64,000 nt of DNA from Empedobacter stercoris (GTDB taxonomy: Bacteria > Bacteroidota > Bacteroidia > Flavobacteriales > Weeksellaceae), in assembly GCF_020281205.1 (NCBI RefSeq), contig NZ_JACXZC010000001.1:124001-188000 (forward strand), in the 5' to 3' direction. Below are positions 48,603 through 58,371 of this stretch, in pieces. The translations under genes were made by a program, and so were the position numbers. Every line of letters begins with the position of its first letter. Position 1 is the stretch's first letter. A model generated the notes under the pieces. It was given only the letters and a program-made list of their open reading frames with translations. It was not told the DNA's origin and ran no database searches.

Positions 48603-49568
48603 TTATTGATTTTTAGATTGAAATAAATTATAATTTAAAAAGAAACCTATTCTGTTTTTCACTTCAATTTCTCCAGAATTTAGATTGGAATGTAAAGGTT
48701 GAAAATATTCTATTCCAAAATTTATTTTTTGAACAGCCGCTTCCAATCCTAATTTTACAAATTGAGCATTTCCAGACGAATTAGGAATAGATTCTTCAAA
48801 TTGTTCATTTTTATTATAAAGTTCGTTTTGGAAACCGATTTTTCCAAGAAACTTATTGTCATTTCTTACTAAAAGATGTTGCAGTTGTATCAATTGATTC
48901 CATTGATTTCCGAACTTATATTTGTTCTTATTTTCTCCTTTCAAATTGTAATCTGTGACCAATTGTATAGCCGAATTTTTATACGTTAGTTGATAATTTA
49001 AACCAAATTGAGTATCCCAACTTCCTGTACCTAATTGAAAACTTGGATTGGTCGTTTGAGCATTTTTTTGATCGAATTTTGCAATAGGAATTTTAACGCC
49101 AACTGCTGCACTTAATCCATGTTTTAATTCGTTTGAGTTCGAATTGGAATTTACAATTTTAACAATCCCCATCATATTCAAATCGCCGATACCAGAAATA
49201 GAGGTTGAGTTTTCACCATCTTTTTGATGAAAATGATAAGGGATACTCGCATTGATATCGATTTTAGAATTGATTGGAATTCTCGTCCATAATAAAATGG
49301 TATTGAAATGTTGTTTCTGCGTACGTTTAGTAGAAAAAGCATCTTCTTTGGCTTTGTAATATTGATGAAGGTATCGAACACCAATATAGTTTGAATTGAT
49401 AAGGTTTTCAATTCCATTGGAAGTTGAAGTTGCTGAACAACCGCAAGCATCACAATCTAATTCTAATTCATTAGGAGAAGACACTAAGATAGAATCATTA
49501 TCTGTATGTGCTAATAATGAAACAGGAAAAATGATTAGAGCTAAAATTAGATTTATATAGACTTTCAT
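48603..49568 (-). CDS. Predicted outer-membrane beta-barrel with a CDACGC motif
   Basis: 321 residues with a signal peptide (1-20, ending LLAH). The mature N-terminus has a Cys cluster, 'ELELDCDACGCSATSTS' (about 36-52), a likely metal-binding site. The rest alternates polar and hydrophobic residues in strands and ends 'RIGFFLNYNLFQ', with a terminal aromatic as in outer-membrane barrels; it resembles the MetA-type phenol-degradation/transporter family. It is the last gene of the mbnP-mbnH operon, 11 bases after the di-heme gene, so it may export or admit copper. This role is inference. Confidence 0.7.
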   Translation of the reverse strand: MKVYINLILALIIFPVSLLAHTDNDSILVSSPNELELDCDACGCSATSTSNGIENLINSNYIGVRYLHQYYKAKEDAFSTKRTQKQHFNTILLWTRIPINSKIDINASIPYHFHQKDGENSTSISGIGDLNMMGIVKIVNSNSNSNELKHGLSAAVGVKIPIAKFDQKNAQTTNPSFQLGTGSWDTQFGLNYQLTYKNSAIQLVTDYNLKGENKNKYKFGNQWNQLIQLQHLLVRNDNKFLGKIGFQNELYNKNEQFEESIPNSSGNAQFVKLGLEAAVQKINFGIEYFQPLHSNLNSGEIEVKNRIGFFLNYNLFQSKNQ

Positions 49569-49579
49569 TTGAATAGTTT

Positions 49580-50620
49580 TTAGAATTCTGCATAAGCAGG
49601 ATTATGAATAAAAGAGTAATCGTTTAATGTTTTTAGAAAAGCAATAATTGCCTTTTTTTCTTGATCGGTCATAGGTATTCCAATTTGACCATTTTGTTTA
49701 AGCTGAGGATCCAAATGTTGATTATTTTGTACACCATCCGAGTAGAAGTCCAAAACAGCTTCTAAACTATAGAAACGACCATCATGCATATAAGGTTTAG
49801 TCATTTCAATATTACGTAAACTTGGAACCCTAAATTTCATAAAATCAGCAGAATCTAATGTGACGCGATACAACCCTCCATCTTTATGTTGTTTGTTATA
49901 ATACATTCCAGTATTTCGAAAAGATTCATCCGTTAAAAGAGCACCTTTATGACAACTCGAACATTTTTGTTGAAAGAGTTGTAACCCTTTACCTTCGGTT
50001 TCAGTTAAATTTATTTCTTTCCTCAAAAATTGATCGTATCTGGAATCCTTTGAAACCACAGAAGCCATAAATTGTCCTAAAGCACTAAGAATTCGATTGG
50101 CATTAATTTGATCATCTCCAAAAGCATTTCTAAACATATTTCGGTAGTTAGCATCATCGGAGAGTTTTTTAATGATTTCGGGGAAAGTGCTATCCATTTC
50201 TTCTTCAGCTGTGATAGGTGAAATTGGTTGTTGAGCTAAATCATGAATCACGCCATCCCACATAAACCGATTTAGAAATGCCAAGTTTTGAATAGGTGGA
50301 GCATTTCGAATTCCTACTCGATCATCAATTCCATGGCTGACAGGATGCCCGTGATGGGTAAATGCATCTTCCTGAATATGACAAAAAGCGCACGAAATTG
50401 TATTGTTTCGAGATAATCGACCTTCATAAAATAATTTTTTCCCTAATGCAACTCCATTTTTAGTGAGTGGATATTTATCCGTGTCAAAGGTTAGTTGAGG
50501 AAAATAAGAAGGGAATTCTAATTGGTAAGGTTCATCTACAATTTGACCATAATCAATATCATCGTCATTACAACTAAATAAGATGAATATCCCCAGTATA
50601 ATTGTTATAATTTTATTCAT
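49580..50620 (-). CDS. mbnH: MbnH/MauG-like di-heme oxidase
   Basis: 346 residues with a lipoprotein signal (lipobox LFSC, Cys17). Two c-type heme sites are visible: C77-A-F-C-H81 and C220-S-S-C-H224, as in bacterial di-heme cytochrome c peroxidase and MauG. 'KPYMHDGRFYSLEAVLDFY' near 275 is the distal region of the second heme. In the methanobactin system MbnH oxidises a tryptophan of its partner MbnP to kynurenine. Its position 42 bases after an MbnP-like gene is why I call it MbnH rather than a peroxidase. The residue that decides between MauG-like and peroxidase chemistry was not settled. Confidence 0.85.
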   Translation of the reverse strand: MNKIITIILGIFILFSCNDDDIDYGQIVDEPYQLEFPSYFPQLTFDTDKYPLTKNGVALGKKLFYEGRLSRNNTISCAFCHIQEDAFTHHGHPVSHGIDDRVGIRNAPPIQNLAFLNRFMWDGVIHDLAQQPISPITAEEEMDSTFPEIIKKLSDDANYRNMFRNAFGDDQINANRILSALGQFMASVVSKDSRYDQFLRKEINLTETEGKGLQLFQQKCSSCHKGALLTDESFRNTGMYYNKQHKDGGLYRVTLDSADFMKFRVPSLRNIEMTKPYMHDGRFYSLEAVLDFYSDGVQNNQHLDPQLKQNGQIGIPMTDQEKKAIIAFLKTLNDYSFIHNPAYAEF

Positions 50621-50662
50621 TGTGATAGAATTTAGCGGTGTTTAAAAACACCGCTGTGAACA

Positions 50663-51508
50663 TTATTGATATTGTTGATCGTTGTGTACATGACTAACTC
50701 GAAACATCTTTTGCATGTTATCTGTAACCAATTGAGCAAAGTTGGAAGACCCCATTACATTGTTGTTAGATTCATCTAATGTTAATTGATGATCACCACT
50801 TAAATACGTATTCAAATTTGCCATAATATGAATAGATGGTTTAATTTTAGAAGTCACTCGCGCAGAAGTTGGTAAATCTAACGTGACTTCTCGGTACAGA
50901 TCTGGTACATTATTTTTGTCAATATCTCCCATATTTCCTGTATGAGTTAGGAAGAATGTATCAGGTGTATTTTTACCATAAAAACCTTCTATTTTAAAGA
51001 AAACATAACCTGCAGCCCAAGCCCAAGTCATTCCATTTTTCTTGGCTATTTCCCAAAAAGTAGCCTGTCCAGTTTGACCTAATAAATAAGCTTTTTGTGA
51101 TACACCAAGTCCAAATCGTACTTTAGTGTACTTGTTTTGTGGAATATCATCTAAATTTAAATAAACCACATTTGCTATTGCAGAATCTTGATTAACAACA
51201 AAAGCACCTTTATCAGGGTCATTTTTATGGTAATCAAATTCGTTTCCTTTCTCGTCAATTAATGTAACGTTAGAAATAATATATTTTAACATGGTGAATT
51301 TATGTTTCTGCCCGTTAGATGAAGTTTGTGTTGTTTGATCTAAAACAATTCCTCCTAAATTATCAAATCCATTTTCAAACTTTAATTGAATTTTACCTGT
51401 TTCTGTTGAATTGATTTCAGAGAAATCATCATCGTCTGTATTACAAGAAGTTAATAAAGTAAATAATGAGATAAATGATAAATGGAGAAAATATTTAATT
51501 GTTTTCAT
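50663..51508 (-). CDS. mbnP: MbnP-like periplasmic protein
   Basis: 281 residues with a lipoprotein signal (lipobox LLTSC, Cys22). The MbnP family pattern is present: 'KIQLKFENGFDNLGGIVLDQ', 'KHKFTMLKYIISNVTL', and 'NGMTWAWAAGYVFFKIEGFY' with Trp162 and Trp164. MbnP binds copper after MbnH turns one Trp into kynurenine; which Trp applies here is unknown. 'FFLTHTGNMGD' and the C-terminal 'RVSHVHNDQQ' give further His residues. It is third in a five-gene minus-strand operon. Confidence 0.85.
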   Translation of the reverse strand: MKTIKYFLHLSFISLFTLLTSCNTDDDDFSEINSTETGKIQLKFENGFDNLGGIVLDQTTQTSSNGQKHKFTMLKYIISNVTLIDEKGNEFDYHKNDPDKGAFVVNQDSAIANVVYLNLDDIPQNKYTKVRFGLGVSQKAYLLGQTGQATFWEIAKKNGMTWAWAAGYVFFKIEGFYGKNTPDTFFLTHTGNMGDIDKNNVPDLYREVTLDLPTSARVTSKIKPSIHIMANLNTYLSGDHQLTLDESNNNVMGSSNFAQLVTDNMQKMFRVSHVHNDQQYQ

Positions 51509-51592
51509 TTTGATATTTGTTTTAATTTTTTTTAATAAAAATGCTTTCCAAAAACAATCATAGTTTTCAGAGAATAATTAGTTGTATAAAAA

Positions 51593-51982
51593 TTAAACAA
51601 TAGGAGGTTTTAAATACTCAAAAACCCAATTGATAGAATAGAATGATTGCCAAAAGTACCGATGTTTTATGGTAACGATAAAATCGTTTATAAATGGAAT
51701 TTCTAAGTATTCGAAATGCAGATAATTTTCCGTAAATCGAATATTTTTAACCAAAAGAGAATCAGCATGCTGTTCTGTTTCGTTTAATTGCTTAGACAAA
51801 TAACATTTTCCATTGCATTGCATTTCTGGTCGTTCTTTATTTATACAATATTCTTCAACAATTTTTTCTTGTACACTAAAAAACACAGTGAAAGGAATTA
51901 ATGAGCGAAAGCCAATTAAAAGCACAAACGATGCAATCATAAAACAATTGAAGCTTTTAACAAATCTTATATGAAATGTCAA
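51593..51982 (-). CDS. Small anchored Cys protein with CNGKC motif, copy 2
   Basis: 129 residues. A hydrophobic segment (about 14-35) is followed by 'EEYCINKERPEMQCNGKCYL', with three cysteines, and a tail ending YLKPPIV. It is a clear paralogue of the next gene (52029-52397): aligned pattern RxLxP, EYCxNxERPExxCNGxCYLxxQ, and PPI at the end. Start is TTG at 51982, or the ATG at 51940. I recall similar small proteins in Bacteroidota, but no function; metal binding by the Cys triad is inference. It lies 84 bases before the mbnP gene. Confidence 0.75.
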   Translation of the reverse strand: MTFHIRFVKSFNCFMIASFVLLIGFRSLIPFTVFFSVQEKIVEEYCINKERPEMQCNGKCYLSKQLNETEQHADSLLVKNIRFTENYLHFEYLEIPFINDFIVTIKHRYFWQSFYSINWVFEYLKPPIV

Positions 51983-52028
51983 ATTGATAAAATGTTAATG
52001 ATAAAAAAATATAATAATCAAGGGTTTT

Positions 52029-52397
52029 TTAACAAATTGGAGGTTGTAGTTGTTGATCCAATTGATATTGAGTTTCGAAAGCTAATTGAAAAGTAGAAAC
52101 TCTTTCAGTAGGTTCAATGATATGAAGTATAGGTATTAGTACAGTGGGTTGATATACAAAATAATCAATAGTACGTAAAGAAATTTGAGTTTTATTTGTG
52201 TCATTTTGTTCATCATCAATAGTTTTAGAAATCTGTTCTTTTAGGTAGCAAACTCCATTACACATTAATTCTGGACGTTCTATATTAACACAATATTCAT
52301 TCGAAATCGTTTCATAATTCACCAAATAGTCGATAACCGGTAGTAATGGTCTACACGTTATCAGGACAACAGTAATGATGAATAAGTAAGATTTCAA
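52029..52397 (-). CDS. Small anchored Cys protein with CNGVC motif, copy 1
   Basis: 122 residues. A hydrophobic start (5-25) is followed by 'NEYCVNIERPELMCNGVCYL', then an acidic, Gln-rich part ending 'QLDQQLQPPIC'. The final cysteine is not shared with copy 2. The only start is TTG at 52397, as no ATG is available upstream in frame. First gene of the operon. No promoter box was found on the minus strand upstream with confidence. Probable metal-binding membrane protein; function unknown. Confidence 0.72.
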   Translation of the reverse strand: MKSYLFIITVVLITCRPLLPVIDYLVNYETISNEYCVNIERPELMCNGVCYLKEQISKTIDDEQNDTNKTQISLRTIDYFVYQPTVLIPILHIIEPTERVSTFQLAFETQYQLDQQLQPPIC

Positions 52398-52666: not shown

Positions 52667-52691
52667 TCCCTGTCACGATCCAAGACAGGGA
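52667..52691 (+). other. Hairpin directly after the small ORF stop
   Basis: An 8-bp perfect stem (tccctgtc / gacaggga), nine-base loop, beginning at the base after the TAG codon. No T run follows, so it is a structured RNA element rather than a terminator. Confidence 0.6.
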
Positions 52692-54309: not shown

Positions 54310-54882
54310 ATGGAAAATGTAAATAAATTATTTATAAAAAATATGGTTTGTCATCGCTGTAAAGTGGTGGTTGGACGAATTTTGAAAATGAATGCAATCG
54401 AAGCAAATCATATCGAATTAGGTGAAGTTGAGTTAACAAATCCAATCGATTCTGAAAAATTGAATCAAATAAAAGAAGAGTTAGAAGAAGTTGGTTTTGA
54501 ATTGATTGATGATAAGAGAAGTAAGTTAATCGAGCAAATTAAAACATTGATTATTCAATTAGTTCATCAAGAAAATAGCGAACTGAAAGTGAATTTATCA
54601 GATTTTTTGAGCGAGAAAACATCTGCAGATTATAAATATATTTCCAATCTTTTTTCGGAAATGGAAGGACAAACAATCGAGAAGTATTTTATTCAGCAAA
54701 AGATAGAAAAAGTCAAGGAGTTGATGGTTTATGACGAATTATCATTGAGCGAAATAGCTTTTCAATTAAACTATTCGAGCGTGGCGCATCTCAGTGCTCA
54801 ATTTAAAAAAGTAACAGGTTTAACGCCTTCTGTTTTTAAACAATTAAGTAAACACAACAGAAAGTCAATTGATAAAATATAA
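54310..54882 (+). CDS. AraC-type regulator with N-terminal heavy-metal-binding-like domain
   Basis: 190 residues. Residues 1-75 look like a heavy-metal-associated (HMA) domain: 'KLFIKNMVCHRCKVVVGRIL' has the CxxC at Cys14 and Cys17. The C-terminal AraC helix-turn-helix runs from about 105 to 185: 'SLSEIAFQLNYSSVAHLSAQ' then 'FKKVTGLTPSVFKQL'. The architecture suggests the regulator senses copper directly, which is inference. It opens the operon with the copper proteins downstream. The site 54198-54231 upstream carries two copies of a cgaa-ttatata-like motif that could be its operator. Confidence 0.83.
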   Translation: MENVNKLFIKNMVCHRCKVVVGRILKMNAIEANHIELGEVELTNPIDSEKLNQIKEELEEVGFELIDDKRSKLIEQIKTLIIQLVHQENSELKVNLSDFLSEKTSADYKYISNLFSEMEGQTIEKYFIQQKIEKVKELMVYDELSLSEIAFQLNYSSVAHLSAQFKKVTGLTPSVFKQLSKHNRKSIDKI

Positions 54883-54886
54883 AAGT

Positions 54887-55711
54887 ATGATAAAATATAG
54901 TTTGTTTTTAATCGTCAATCTTTTTGCTTTTGTGGTAAATGCGCAAAGCAAAAATCTTGAAACGAAATCATTCGAGGTAAGAAGTAATTGTAATTCAGCT
55001 AAGGAATTAATCGAAAATGTAGGAAATCAAAAACGTATTTCGAAAGTATCTTACGACACGACTTCTCAAATCGCCACGATTTCTTATGATCCAACCAAAA
55101 CAACTTCAAACGAAATTTTAAAGAATATCGCTTTGTCAGGTTTTGATAATTCTGAATATTTTGCTCCAGATGAAGCGTATCTAAAATTAAGACAAGATTG
55201 TCAATACCCACGCGATAAAAAAATGGTAATAAATTATCAAGAAATGAATCATGCTGACCAACATCAAGTGAAAAATGAAGTGAATCAAAATCAACTTTCT
55301 TTGGTTTTTGATGCATATTTTTTATTAAAAGATGCTTTTGTTGCAGGGAATGCAAATGAAATTTCAACACAAATAACGGCTTTTTCTCAATCAATTTCTA
55401 AAGTAGAAATGAGAAAACTTTCGCATGAAACACATATGGTTTGGATGGATGTTTTAAAGGATTTAGAATCCATTTCAAAACAAATTTCTCATGAAAAAAA
55501 CATTGAAAAACAACGCGAATTGTTTGCGAAATTATCTGAACCAATGTACAAATTAGCTCAAAAAGAAAATTTAGGTTATTCCATTTATTACCAAAATTGT
55601 CCCATGTTTAAAGGAGGTTCAAATTGGTTGAGTAAAGATTCATCCATCAAAAATCCTTTTTACGGGAATCAAATGTTAACATGTGGAAGTACAATAGAAA
55701 CTCTAAAATAG
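54887..55711 (+). CDS. DUF3347 protein with HMA-like domain, periplasmic
   Basis: 274 residues from the ATG at 54887, giving a signal peptide ending VNAQ. Residues 25-90 resemble an HMA fold ('TISYDPTKTTSNEILKNIAL') but 'VRSNCNSAKELIENV' has one Cys only. From about 120 to 274 the DUF3347 pattern follows: 'LSLVFDAYFLLKDAFVAGNA' and 'IYYQNCPMFKGGSNWLSKDS', the site seen in copper-efflux proteins of Bacteroidota. A TTG at 54869 would overlap the regulator and is rejected. Likely periplasmic copper binder. Confidence 0.78.
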   Translation: MIKYSLFLIVNLFAFVVNAQSKNLETKSFEVRSNCNSAKELIENVGNQKRISKVSYDTTSQIATISYDPTKTTSNEILKNIALSGFDNSEYFAPDEAYLKLRQDCQYPRDKKMVINYQEMNHADQHQVKNEVNQNQLSLVFDAYFLLKDAFVAGNANEISTQITAFSQSISKVEMRKLSHETHMVWMDVLKDLESISKQISHEKNIEKQRELFAKLSEPMYKLAQKENLGYSIYYQNCPMFKGGSNWLSKDSSIKNPFYGNQMLTCGSTIETLK

Positions 55712-55717
55712 AAACAA

Positions 55718-56152
55718 ATGATAAATATACAATCACTTTTAGGAATCGCTTTTTTATCAACAATAGTTTTGGTTTCTTGTCAAAATAAAGCCGATGAAAA
55801 TCAAACAGAAATTTCTCCTACCGAACATATAGTTGCTCACCAAGACGTATCGAATCTTGTTGCTTATAATGTAGGAGATAAAGTACCAAATAGTCAAGTT
55901 TGTATGGTAAACAACGCTTATATGGGAAAAGATCAGTTCGAAGTGCCTTATGACGGGAAAACATATTACGGTTGTTGTAATATGTGTGTAGAAAGAATTC
56001 CAAATGATGAAAGTGCTCGTTCTGCAATTGATCCGTTTACGAATAAAAAAGTTGATAAAGCAAATGCGTATATCGTTTTGAAGGATCAAATGGGAAATGT
56101 TGATTATTTTGAGAATGAAGAGAATTATAGAAAGTTTAATCAGATAAAATAA
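55718..56152 (+). CDS. Cys-rich lipoprotein, TRASH/NosL-like
   Basis: 144 residues with a lipobox (LVSC, Cys21). The core 'VCMVNNAYMGKDQFEVPYDG' followed by 'KTYYGCCNMCVERIPND' contains four cysteines arranged as C...GCCNMC, like a TRASH/YHS metal-binding domain. It probably binds copper in the periplasm; function by context only. Six bases after the DUF3347 gene, five before the oxidase. Confidence 0.68.
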   Translation: MINIQSLLGIAFLSTIVLVSCQNKADENQTEISPTEHIVAHQDVSNLVAYNVGDKVPNSQVCMVNNAYMGKDQFEVPYDGKTYYGCCNMCVERIPNDESARSAIDPFTNKKVDKANAYIVLKDQMGNVDYFENEENYRKFNQIK

Positions 56153-56157
56153 AAGTT

Positions 56158-58371
56158 ATGAGAAAATTTATTTTTATTTCTATTATTGCTTTTTCTATAT
56201 CTGTTATTGCTCAAAAACGTGTCGAATATGATTTGTATGTACATGATACCATTGTTAATTATTCGGGAAAAGAACGTAAAGCAATTGCAGTAAATGGTCA
56301 AATTCCAATGCCAACTTTAGAGTTTACTGAATGCGATACGGCTGTTATTCGTGTACATAATCAATTGAAAGAAGATACCTCGTTGCATTGGCACGGCTTG
56401 TGGTTGCCAAATAAGGAAGATGGTGTACCTATGTTAACACAAGACGGAATAAAACCTGGTGAAACGTTTACCTATTCGTTTCCAATTATTCAGAACGGAA
56501 CACACTGGTATCACAGTCATTCGGGTTATCAAGAACAGATTGGAATGTATGGATCGATGGTGTTGAAAAAACATGCCAACGACCCAACGTTCAGAAAAGG
56601 AATTGATGATCTACCTGTTGTTAACGTGATGTTGAGCGAATGGACAGATCTTAATCCAAGAAATATTCAACGAATGTTACACAATGCAAACGATTGGGCA
56701 GGAATCAAAAAAGGATCTACGCAAAGTTATGCAGAAGCAATACGAGAAGGTCATTTTGGAACGAAAATCATCAACGAATGGAAGCGTATGCTGGCTATGG
56801 ATGTGAGTGATGTGTTTTATGATAAATTTTTGATAAACGGAGCAAATGAAAGTCAATTAAAGCAATTTAAAGCTGGCGATAAAGTCCGCCTACGAATTTC
56901 GAATGGTGGTGCATCATCTTATTTTTGGTTGCGTTATGCGGGAGGAAAAATTACAGTAGTTGCCAACGACGGAAATGATGTAGAGCCTTTAGACGTAGAT
57001 CGTTTGATTATTGGTGTTTCCGAAACCTATGATGTGGTTGTGACGATTCCAGAAGAAGGTATTTCATATGAATTTCAAGCAACTTCGGAAGACAGAACAG
57101 GTTCAGCTTCGTTATTTCTTGGTGATGGAAAAAAACAACTGATAGAACCACTCCCGAAATTAAAATACTTTGAAGGAATGAAGATGATGAACGACATGAT
57201 GAACATGGACGGTTCGATGAATGATATGGGTATGAAAATGAGTTTGCAACAAATGGATATGAATACGGTAATGTATCCTGAAATTACAGGCGAATCGAAT
57301 AAAAAAACTCGAAAAAAGAATAAAGAAAGTGATCATTCTGCTCATGGAAATTCATCTTCAAATATTGTGACCTTAAATTACGGAATGCTAAAAGCTCCTG
57401 AAAACACAGAACTTCCAAAAGATGCACCTGTAAAAGAAATGCGTTTTGAATTAACAGGAAATATGAACCGGTATGTATGGAGTATGGACAATAAAGTATT
57501 GTCTGAAGTAGATAAAATTCCAGTTAAAAAAGGCGAAATTTTACGCATTACGTTGTACAATAATTCCATGATGCGCCACCCAATGCATTTACATGGTTTC
57601 GATTTTCGAGTGATTAATAAAAATGGCGCATATTCACCGTTGAAAAATGTATTGGATATTATGCCAATGGAAACGAATGTAATCGAATTTCAAGCAAATA
57701 CAGAAGGTGATTGGTTTTTCCATTGTCATATTTTGTATCACATGATGGCAGGAATGAACCGTGTTTTTGAAGTTGGAGATTATCAGAATCCATATATTCA
57801 CGATCAAGCAAAAATGTATAAAATGTTGCAAATGGATAGCAATATGAAACATTTTATGGCTGAAAATGACTTTGCAACAAATGGTTTAGATGGATCGTTT
57901 ATGGTACAAGATGCACGTTGGGCACTGACTTCGGAATGGGGAATTGGTTACAAACCTGAACATGGCTACGAAGTGGAAACACATTTGGGAAGATATTTTG
58001 GGAAGAATCAGTTTTTACAAGCGTTCATTGGATTTGATTGGAATCAACATCGAACGAAACGTCACAAAGTAGAAAAAAATATTTTTGGACAAAAAACAGC
58101 TCGAAATAAAGGTTTATTCAGTGCAGGTTTTGTGTATAAATTACCAATGTTGATTGATTTTCAGACCGAAATTTACCACACAGGAAAAGTGCGTTTACAA
58201 TTAATGCGCAAAGATATTCCGATTTCAAAACGTGTAAGAGCAGGTTTTATGTGGAATACTGATAAAGAATATATGGGAGAATTAAGTTACATCTTAAATA
58301 AAAATATGCACATCCGAACACATTATGACAGCGATATGAAATTTGGTGTAGGATTAAAATTGGTGTATTAG
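56158..58371 (+). CDS. Multicopper oxidase, CopA-type, with Met-rich linker and C-terminal barrel-like extension
   Basis: 737 residues with a signal peptide (1-18). Copper ligands of the four motifs: HWHG (77-80), HWYHSH (116-121), HPMHLH (474-479) and HCHILYHMMAGM (522-533), which includes the type 1 site. A Met-rich stretch at 341-372 ('MKMMNDMMNMDGSMNDMGMK') likely binds Cu(I). The oxidase should convert Cu(I) to less toxic Cu(II). Residues 560-737 are an added domain with CopB-like features ('LTSEWGIGYKPEHGYEVETH') and a final 'GVGLKLVY', resembling an outer-membrane barrel. Last gene of the unit. Confidence 0.9.
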   Translation: MRKFIFISIIAFSISVIAQKRVEYDLYVHDTIVNYSGKERKAIAVNGQIPMPTLEFTECDTAVIRVHNQLKEDTSLHWHGLWLPNKEDGVPMLTQDGIKPGETFTYSFPIIQNGTHWYHSHSGYQEQIGMYGSMVLKKHANDPTFRKGIDDLPVVNVMLSEWTDLNPRNIQRMLHNANDWAGIKKGSTQSYAEAIREGHFGTKIINEWKRMLAMDVSDVFYDKFLINGANESQLKQFKAGDKVRLRISNGGASSYFWLRYAGGKITVVANDGNDVEPLDVDRLIIGVSETYDVVVTIPEEGISYEFQATSEDRTGSASLFLGDGKKQLIEPLPKLKYFEGMKMMNDMMNMDGSMNDMGMKMSLQQMDMNTVMYPEITGESNKKTRKKNKESDHSAHGNSSSNIVTLNYGMLKAPENTELPKDAPVKEMRFELTGNMNRYVWSMDNKVLSEVDKIPVKKGEILRITLYNNSMMRHPMHLHGFDFRVINKNGAYSPLKNVLDIMPMETNVIEFQANTEGDWFFHCHILYHMMAGMNRVFEVGDYQNPYIHDQAKMYKMLQMDSNMKHFMAENDFATNGLDGSFMVQDARWALTSEWGIGYKPEHGYEVETHLGRYFGKNQFLQAFIGFDWNQHRTKRHKVEKNIFGQKTARNKGLFSAGFVYKLPMLIDFQTEIYHTGKVRLQLMRKDIPISKRVRAGFMWNTDKEYMGELSYILNKNMHIRTHYDSDMKFGVGLKLVY

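Follow-up and report, generated by a model that had tools for sequence, protein, structure and literature searches.

A conserved copper operon of Empedobacter stercoris headed by two putative copper-sensing leader peptides

The 64,000-nucleotide (nt) stretch of Empedobacter stercoris DNA analyzed here (the window; contig NZ_JACXZC010000001.1, positions 124,001 to 188,000) carries a five-gene operon for an MbnP/MbnH-like pair and an outer-membrane barrel, preceded by two small paralogous genes, cysA and cysB. The MbnH family oxidizes a Trp of MbnP, which makes a copper site, and the locus raises the question of what two small Cys-containing proteins do at the head of such an operon. By analogy with leaders characterized in other bacteria, we consider it reasonably probable that the operon serves copper acquisition and that its first two genes are copper-sensing leader open reading frames (ORFs), whose products CysA and CysB would act in cis as arrest peptides. 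The original prediction had described five minus-strand genes with gaps of 11–84 nt and a set of Cys, heme and Trp motifs, and all of these are present. From cysA to the barrel gene the gaps are 46, 84, 42, and 11 nt, and the features are as follows.

52029..52397, minus strand: CysA, 122 amino acids (aa), TTG start; predicted copper-sensing upstream ORF (putative arrest peptide)
51593..51982, minus strand: CysB, 129-aa paralogue of CysA, TTG start; predicted copper-sensing upstream ORF directly before mbnP
50663..51508, minus strand: MbnP-like lipoprotein (PF20243) with a WxW segment (residues 162/164) and, after lipobox Cys22, NTDDDD, which resembles a surface-export signal
49580..50620, minus strand: MbnH/MauG-like di-heme lipoprotein with two CxxCH motifs, lipobox Cys followed by NDDD
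48603..49568, minus strand: outer-membrane beta-barrel of the COG4313/FapF type with an invariant CDxCGC in its mature N-terminus, which is disordered
51983..52100, minus strand: 3' end of cysA and the cysA-cysB gap, C-rich and G-poor; candidate attenuation region
51509..51592, minus strand: cysB-mbnP gap, 84 nt; candidate attenuation region

CysA (EYCVNIERPELMCNGVCYL) has one hydrophobic N-terminal helix, the motif C36-x-N...C46-N-G-V-C50 and the C-terminus QPPIC; CysB (EYCINKERPEMQCNGKCYL) carries CIN...CNGKC and ends in KPPIV. Conservation was counted in 79 non-redundant members of the family (60% identity) out of a full set of 249. In the alignment only the Cys triad ending in CxxxC and a Pro-Pro at the extreme C-terminus are invariant (79/79). 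Two further residues, N38 (91%) and G48 (99%), are nearly so, and conservation of residues 60–110 is near background. The Pro-Pro lies within the last 8 residues in 74 of the 79 members; over the full set this holds for 97%, against 0.5% of 2308 other ORFs from the same loci. The chain ends exactly two residues past it in 191/249 members, the residue before it is H, R, K or Q in 69/79, and its distance from CxxxC is 64–69 residues in 68/79. A single hydrophobic helix precedes the Cys triad in 76 of the 79. AlphaFold2, run with 49 sequences, reached a mean predicted local distance difference test (pLDDT) score of 59 and was confident only in this helix, apart from which the family is predicted to be disordered. 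In 39 of 76 members the position required for the start offers no ATG and translation begins at TTG or GTG; all three copies of the window's genome start with TTG. Scans of 55 members against Pfam and NCBIfam gave scattered chance matches only and no family model, a search of the PDB gave no credible match, and a plasmid search with CysA returned a single weak match.

The original prediction that the small Cys genes accompany mbnP/mbnH was borne out in a sample of 296 genomes drawn across Bacteroidota, of which 118 carried the Cys family and 78 carried MbnP, with 56 carrying both (Fisher p 2.5 × 10−11). The two are often neighbors, a Cys gene lying within 6 kb of 43 of the 98 MbnP places, mostly about 1 kb off. 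Within the window's own family of bacteria, the genomes listed as lacking a Cys match include 1 of the 68 MbnP genomes; eight more genomes lacking a match were not given by name. Many Cys genes have no MbnP in their vicinity, and the Cys family is therefore wider than the MbnP system; it is a Bacteroidota-wide family. Its members immediately precede copper cassettes of several kinds, namely MbnP/MbnH, YHS-Sco, and OprC/NosA-like TonB receptors. In 72 of the 79 non-redundant members a same-strand gene follows directly (median gap 95 nt), mostly one for MbnP, YHS(-Sco) or a TonB receptor. Several of these receptors match TIGR01778 (TonB-copper), and outside MbnP operons the Cys genes are surrounded by TonB-dependent receptors, in some cases next to NosZ and further genes of the nos type. 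A tree of the family, which is poorly resolved and was used for this point alone, shows that the cassette type switched repeatedly. In the window's genome the cassette is split. The operon holds Cys-Cys-MbnP-MbnH-barrel, and a third Cys gene on another contig (L032 5690-7160, G000:C65) heads a YHS lipoprotein gene and a SCO1/SenC gene with no MbnP. A TonB-copper receptor was considered as the partner in the window's genome, where it gave weak matches only, on other contigs.

Three side observations concern these arrangements. In L056 (6233-7138), L059 (6818-7759), and L183 (8749-9687), a gene for a YtkA-like lipoprotein separates the Cys ORF from the TonB copper receptor. Two Cys ORFs stand in tandem ahead of a TonB receptor in L165 (6472-7476), like the window pair ahead of mbnP. 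In G032:C1 the Cys-Cys-MbnP stretch is present twice, at 436895-439472 and 524251-526828, with identical match scores and spacing.

The original prediction had taken the small Cys proteins for an inner-membrane step of the copper route. In its fullest form this would make CysA and CysB stable Cu(I) chaperones or reductants anchored in the inner membrane; their three Cys would receive copper from MbnP and the barrel, or from a TonB route, and pass it to Sco. Such a role is favored by the three invariant Cys that follow a membrane helix and by the family's strict link to genes for copper uptake and delivery. However, little else is conserved and no fold is predicted beyond the helix, the invariant Pro-Pro and its fixed spacing from CxxxC would be left unexplained, half of the family lacks an ATG start, and each kind of cassette is headed by its own Cys copy rather than served by a shared one. 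With the family standing before several unrelated copper cassettes, we regard this explanation as unlikely and no longer the best one.

The features that a chaperone would leave unexplained are those of two known copper-sensing upstream ORFs of Proteobacteria. In CruR of Bordetella pertussis (bp2923, DUF2946/PF11162), which is predicted to be exported, a CXXC senses copper and a C-terminal RAPP arrests the ribosome at fixed spacing (PMC9426467), and the arrest was demonstrated in vitro (PMC12992588). In CutF of Rhodobacter capsulatus (cutFOG), which has a CxxxC and a C-terminal Pro motif, copper switches the operon on (PMC9973294). In both, copper on the Cys pair alters ribosome arrest at the C-terminal Pro motif (PMC9426467, PMC9973294). 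CysA and CysB are read as leaders because they share this anatomy: a variable, disordered chain, an invariant Cys triad and C-terminal Pro-Pro, a position at the head of the cassette, and non-ATG starts. Like CruR, members of the Cys family are small ORFs with an N-terminal membrane or signal segment, directly 5' of same-strand copper-uptake genes, with a Cys pair at a fixed distance from a Pro-Pro a few residues from the C-terminus and with predicted disorder. The B. pertussis order cruR-bfrG-bp2921 (PMC9426467) is matched by Cys ORF-TonB receptor-PepSY_TM in L154 and L164, and operons of the CruR family, too, include MbnPH-like genes, along with OprC and Sco genes (PMC9426467). CutF shares the CxxxC, the C-terminal Pro motif, the signal sequence, and the short gap to the copper gene. 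The Cys family differs from CruR in having CxxxC with a third Cys and an Asn instead of CXXC, [HRKQ]PP instead of RAPP, a Cys-to-Pro-Pro spacing of 64–69 instead of ~45, a median gap of 95 instead of 162 nt, and its home in Bacteroidota.

The Cys family would thus work like CruR by analogy and is not a member of DUF2946, as there is no detectable homology and no RAPP or RGPP. Copper-related RAPP/RGPP leaders were reported not to be found in Bacteroidota (PMC12992588), a screen to which the Cys family, with [HRKQ]PP in place of RAPP/RGPP, would be invisible. DUF2946 proteins ending in RAPP or RGPP do occur sporadically in Bacteroidota (L192-L196), in genomes that also hold the Cys family. A survey with looser filters in the CutF paper reports many CutF-like proteins of Bacteroidota, and some of the Cys family may already stand in its lists (PMC9973294). 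That the Cys family at large is a phylum-wide Bacteroidota class of copper-sensing ribosome-arrest leaders unrelated in sequence to DUF2946 is a proposition we hold to be evenly balanced. Such a class would combine a Cys-triad sensor with an arrest core of [HRKQ]-Pro-Pro two residues before the stop, and would separately control MbnP/MbnH capture, Sco/YHS delivery, OprC/NosA-type TonB uptake, and receptors beside nitrous-oxide reductase clusters.

In the mechanism that we propose, CysA and CysB would be made at a low level and inserted into the membrane by their N-terminal helix. Under copper scarcity, translation would stall at the C-terminal [HRKQ]-Pro-Pro, some two codons ahead of the stop, which would keep the transcript open for expression of the genes behind. 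Binding of Cu(I) to the CxxxC triad would release the stall, and downstream expression would fall. A C-rich, G-poor region is typical of Rho-dependent attenuation; at 52022-52099 the content is C 0.24 and G 0.06, the candidate region at 51983..52100 is without stable structure, and Rho is encoded in the window's genome. We infer a CruR-like sign of the response, with copper turning the cassette off, on two grounds: the genes downstream serve uptake and delivery, and RNA folding of the cysA-cysB and cysB-mbnP gaps revealed no stem-loop beyond chance.

The opposite sign would apply if the leaders worked in the sense of CutF, copper strengthening the arrest, opening a structure in the gap and turning the cassette on as a tolerance system. 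CutF has the same CxxxC and a Pro-rich C-terminus, and a multicopper oxidase cluster lies near the operon. Yet no stem-loop over the next start was found in the gaps, and TonB copper receptors, MbnPH, and Sco are acquisition genes, a type that copper switches off through CruR. We therefore consider this sense improbable for CysA and CysB.

Several points weigh against CysA and CysB as CruR-like leaders of a copper-acquisition operon. No match to DUF2946 (PF11162) was listed for 55 Cys-family members at E-values up to 10, and HHalign of the family against five Bacteroidota DUF2946 proteins gave a probability of 0.1%, i.e., no homology. The family motif is [HRKQ]PP and not the proven RAPP/RGPP, and the conserved tail could instead serve a stable protein for binding or sorting. 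The two Cys genes of the window are arranged in tandem, and in Chryseobacterium CysB-type genes lie inside operons rather than at the transcript start. The 3' region is C-rich and G-poor relative to neighboring genes in 76 of 79 Cys genes (p 1.5 × 10−14), with amino-acid content explaining 0.045 of the 0.061 excess (about three quarters); we count the excess as weak support because it mostly follows from that content. As to the genes downstream, the MbnP/MbnH pair fails the strict NCBIfam cut-offs, and Trp oxidation is carried over to it by analogy from what is known of the family.

MbnP of the window passed the gathering cut-off of PF20243 (E 4 × 10−34, 118.5 vs. 27 bits) and scored below that of the NCBIfam equivalog MbnP_like_WxW (TIGR04052; 30.2 vs. 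140 bits). It contains TWAW, and W162 and W164 of its WxW are invariant in 22/22 relatives. The GMxWxW segment aligns with 7L6G, although the profile as a whole matches it only weakly (E 0.63). In mature MbnP no Cys beyond that of the lipobox is conserved, and the four-Cys motif of the metallo-mystery pair protein, which 7L6G has, is absent. MbnH matched CCP_MauG (E 8 × 10−54), and its best NCBIfam match was TIGR04039, "MbnH family di-heme enzyme", whose equivalog cut-off was not reached (228.6 vs. 362.85 bits). Its profile matched the solved di-heme enzyme 6E1C (E 2 × 10−62), and both CxxCH motifs are invariant in 22 relatives. Judged by sequence, the two are a divergent lipoprotein branch of their families, because their scores are far below the equivalog cut-offs and mature MbnP has no conserved Cys; both being lipoproteins also sets them apart from the solved pair (7L6G, 6E1C). 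No methanobactin genes were noticed in the operon or its flanks. A literature search yielded nothing useful on MbnP in Bacteroidota or on copper limitation in Flavobacterium.

At least two acidic residues at positions +2 to +7 after the lipobox Cys were found in 73/78 MbnP and 74/76 MbnH sequences, against 2/65 YHS lipoproteins of the same operons. Such a stretch resembles the signal by which Bacteroidetes export lipoproteins to the surface, which in Flavobacterium johnsoniae reads SDDFE (PMC5080379). The original prediction had placed MbnP and MbnH in the periplasm; as a copper pair they hold, and as to location these signals make the cell surface more likely than the periplasm for both. Copper capture at the surface is probable for the same reason. 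CorA/CorB and MopE/SACCP are functional parallels of the pair, and in methanotrophs MopE and CorA are found at the cell surface (PMC3912023).

The barrel carries DCDACGC after its signal peptide and was modeled with 12–13 strands (pLDDT 79). Its fold is shared with the COG4313 (Phenol_MetA_deg) channel 4RL8 (VIA-align Z 24.6, root-mean-square deviation (rmsd) 2.3, 241 aligned) and with FapF; these are the closest solved folds, with Z 24.6 each and rmsd 2.2–2.3 over ~240 residues. The window barrel differs from them in its ~14–17% identity and its invariant CDxCGC tag, which sits in a disordered N-terminal segment ahead of the barrel. It did not match PF13557 (Phenol_MetA_deg), which 7 of 20 relatives did (best E 1 × 10−10), and a PDB sequence search with the barrel profile gave nothing credible. 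In the proposed route, MbnH would oxidize a Trp in the WxW segment of MbnP to form a copper site, and both, as lipoproteins with acidic export signals, would probably act at the cell surface. The channel, with CDACGC on its free N-terminus, would carry copper across the outer membrane, and Sco and YHS proteins, coded in related operons and elsewhere in the window's genome, would take it onward. The succession from surface MbnP through the channel to Sco/YHS coded elsewhere is, we infer, likely.

A scan of the genome collection with the barrel as query returned 80 named loci, and MbnP-MbnH-barrel occurred in the same order in all 80, which supports the predicted MbnP/MbnH copper system with a dedicated outer-membrane barrel. 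A CysA-type gene was present in at least 77 and a CysB-type gene in 72 of these loci, and common neighbors were Sco (69), YHS (69), a protein containing superoxide dismutase (SOD; 64), and a metal P-type ATPase (59). The cassette was found in Empedobacter, Algoriella, Weeksella, Vaginella, Chryseobacterium, Elizabethkingia, Epilithonimonas, and further relatives, usually as Cys-YHS-Sco-SOD-Cys-MbnP-MbnH-barrel in Chryseobacterium. The five-gene arrangement is not due to chance, because it recurs in the seven genera named, and the operon is a real, conserved copper cassette. A non-copper task, such as peroxide defense by a di-heme peroxidase with the Cys proteins as redox partners, is suggested by the match of the MbnH profile to bacterial cytochrome c peroxidases and by the SOD-containing protein of Chryseobacterium operons, but is very improbable given that MbnP with its conserved WxW adjoins MbnH and that Sco, TonB-copper receptors, and nos genes surround the Cys family.

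The Fe/Mn SOD seen inside copper operons has an extra C-terminal domain in L040 (6738-7826) and L049 (6780-7778); that of L040 had no Pfam match, and a similar domain stands alone in L039 (11060-11485). About 2 kb from the operon, on the opposite strand, the window holds a second copper cluster (54310-58371, plus strand) encoding an AraC-type regulator with CHRC in its N-terminus, an HMA/DUF3347 protein, a 144-aa protein, and a multicopper oxidase. A perfect short hairpin (TCCCTGTC / GACAGGGA, 9-nt loop) was seen at 52667-52691, between the operon and a divergent GreA/GreB-like gene; the folding energy of the stretch around it was not beyond that of shuffled sequences. Near the third Cys copy, in L032 (9014-9818), a polyphosphate kinase 2-like gene, identified by eye, seems split into two ORFs of 114 and 151 aa, its relatives in L035 and L036 being one ORF of ~270 aa.

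Sensing of copper shortage in Bacteroidota is little described in the literature consulted, and copper-sensing control by ribosome stalling has so far been proven only in other bacterial groups. The proposed kind of regulator is known from other phyla; new here are the Cys family with its motif and the connection to MbnP/MbnH in Bacteroidota. Hypothetical proteins of ~120 aa that have carried no annotation would gain a testable role. If CysA and CysB are copper-sensing leaders, the MbnP/MbnH pair would be placed at the cell surface outside methanotrophs and tied to a dedicated Cys-tagged channel, and, were the class phylum-wide, the lack of copper-related RAPP/RGPP leaders in Bacteroidota (PMC12992588) would be a gap that is filled. 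Metal sensing by a nascent chain would then have been solved a second time, independently, and one short ORF family would explain the copper control of uptake, delivery, and nitrous-oxide-reductase-linked loci across the phylum.

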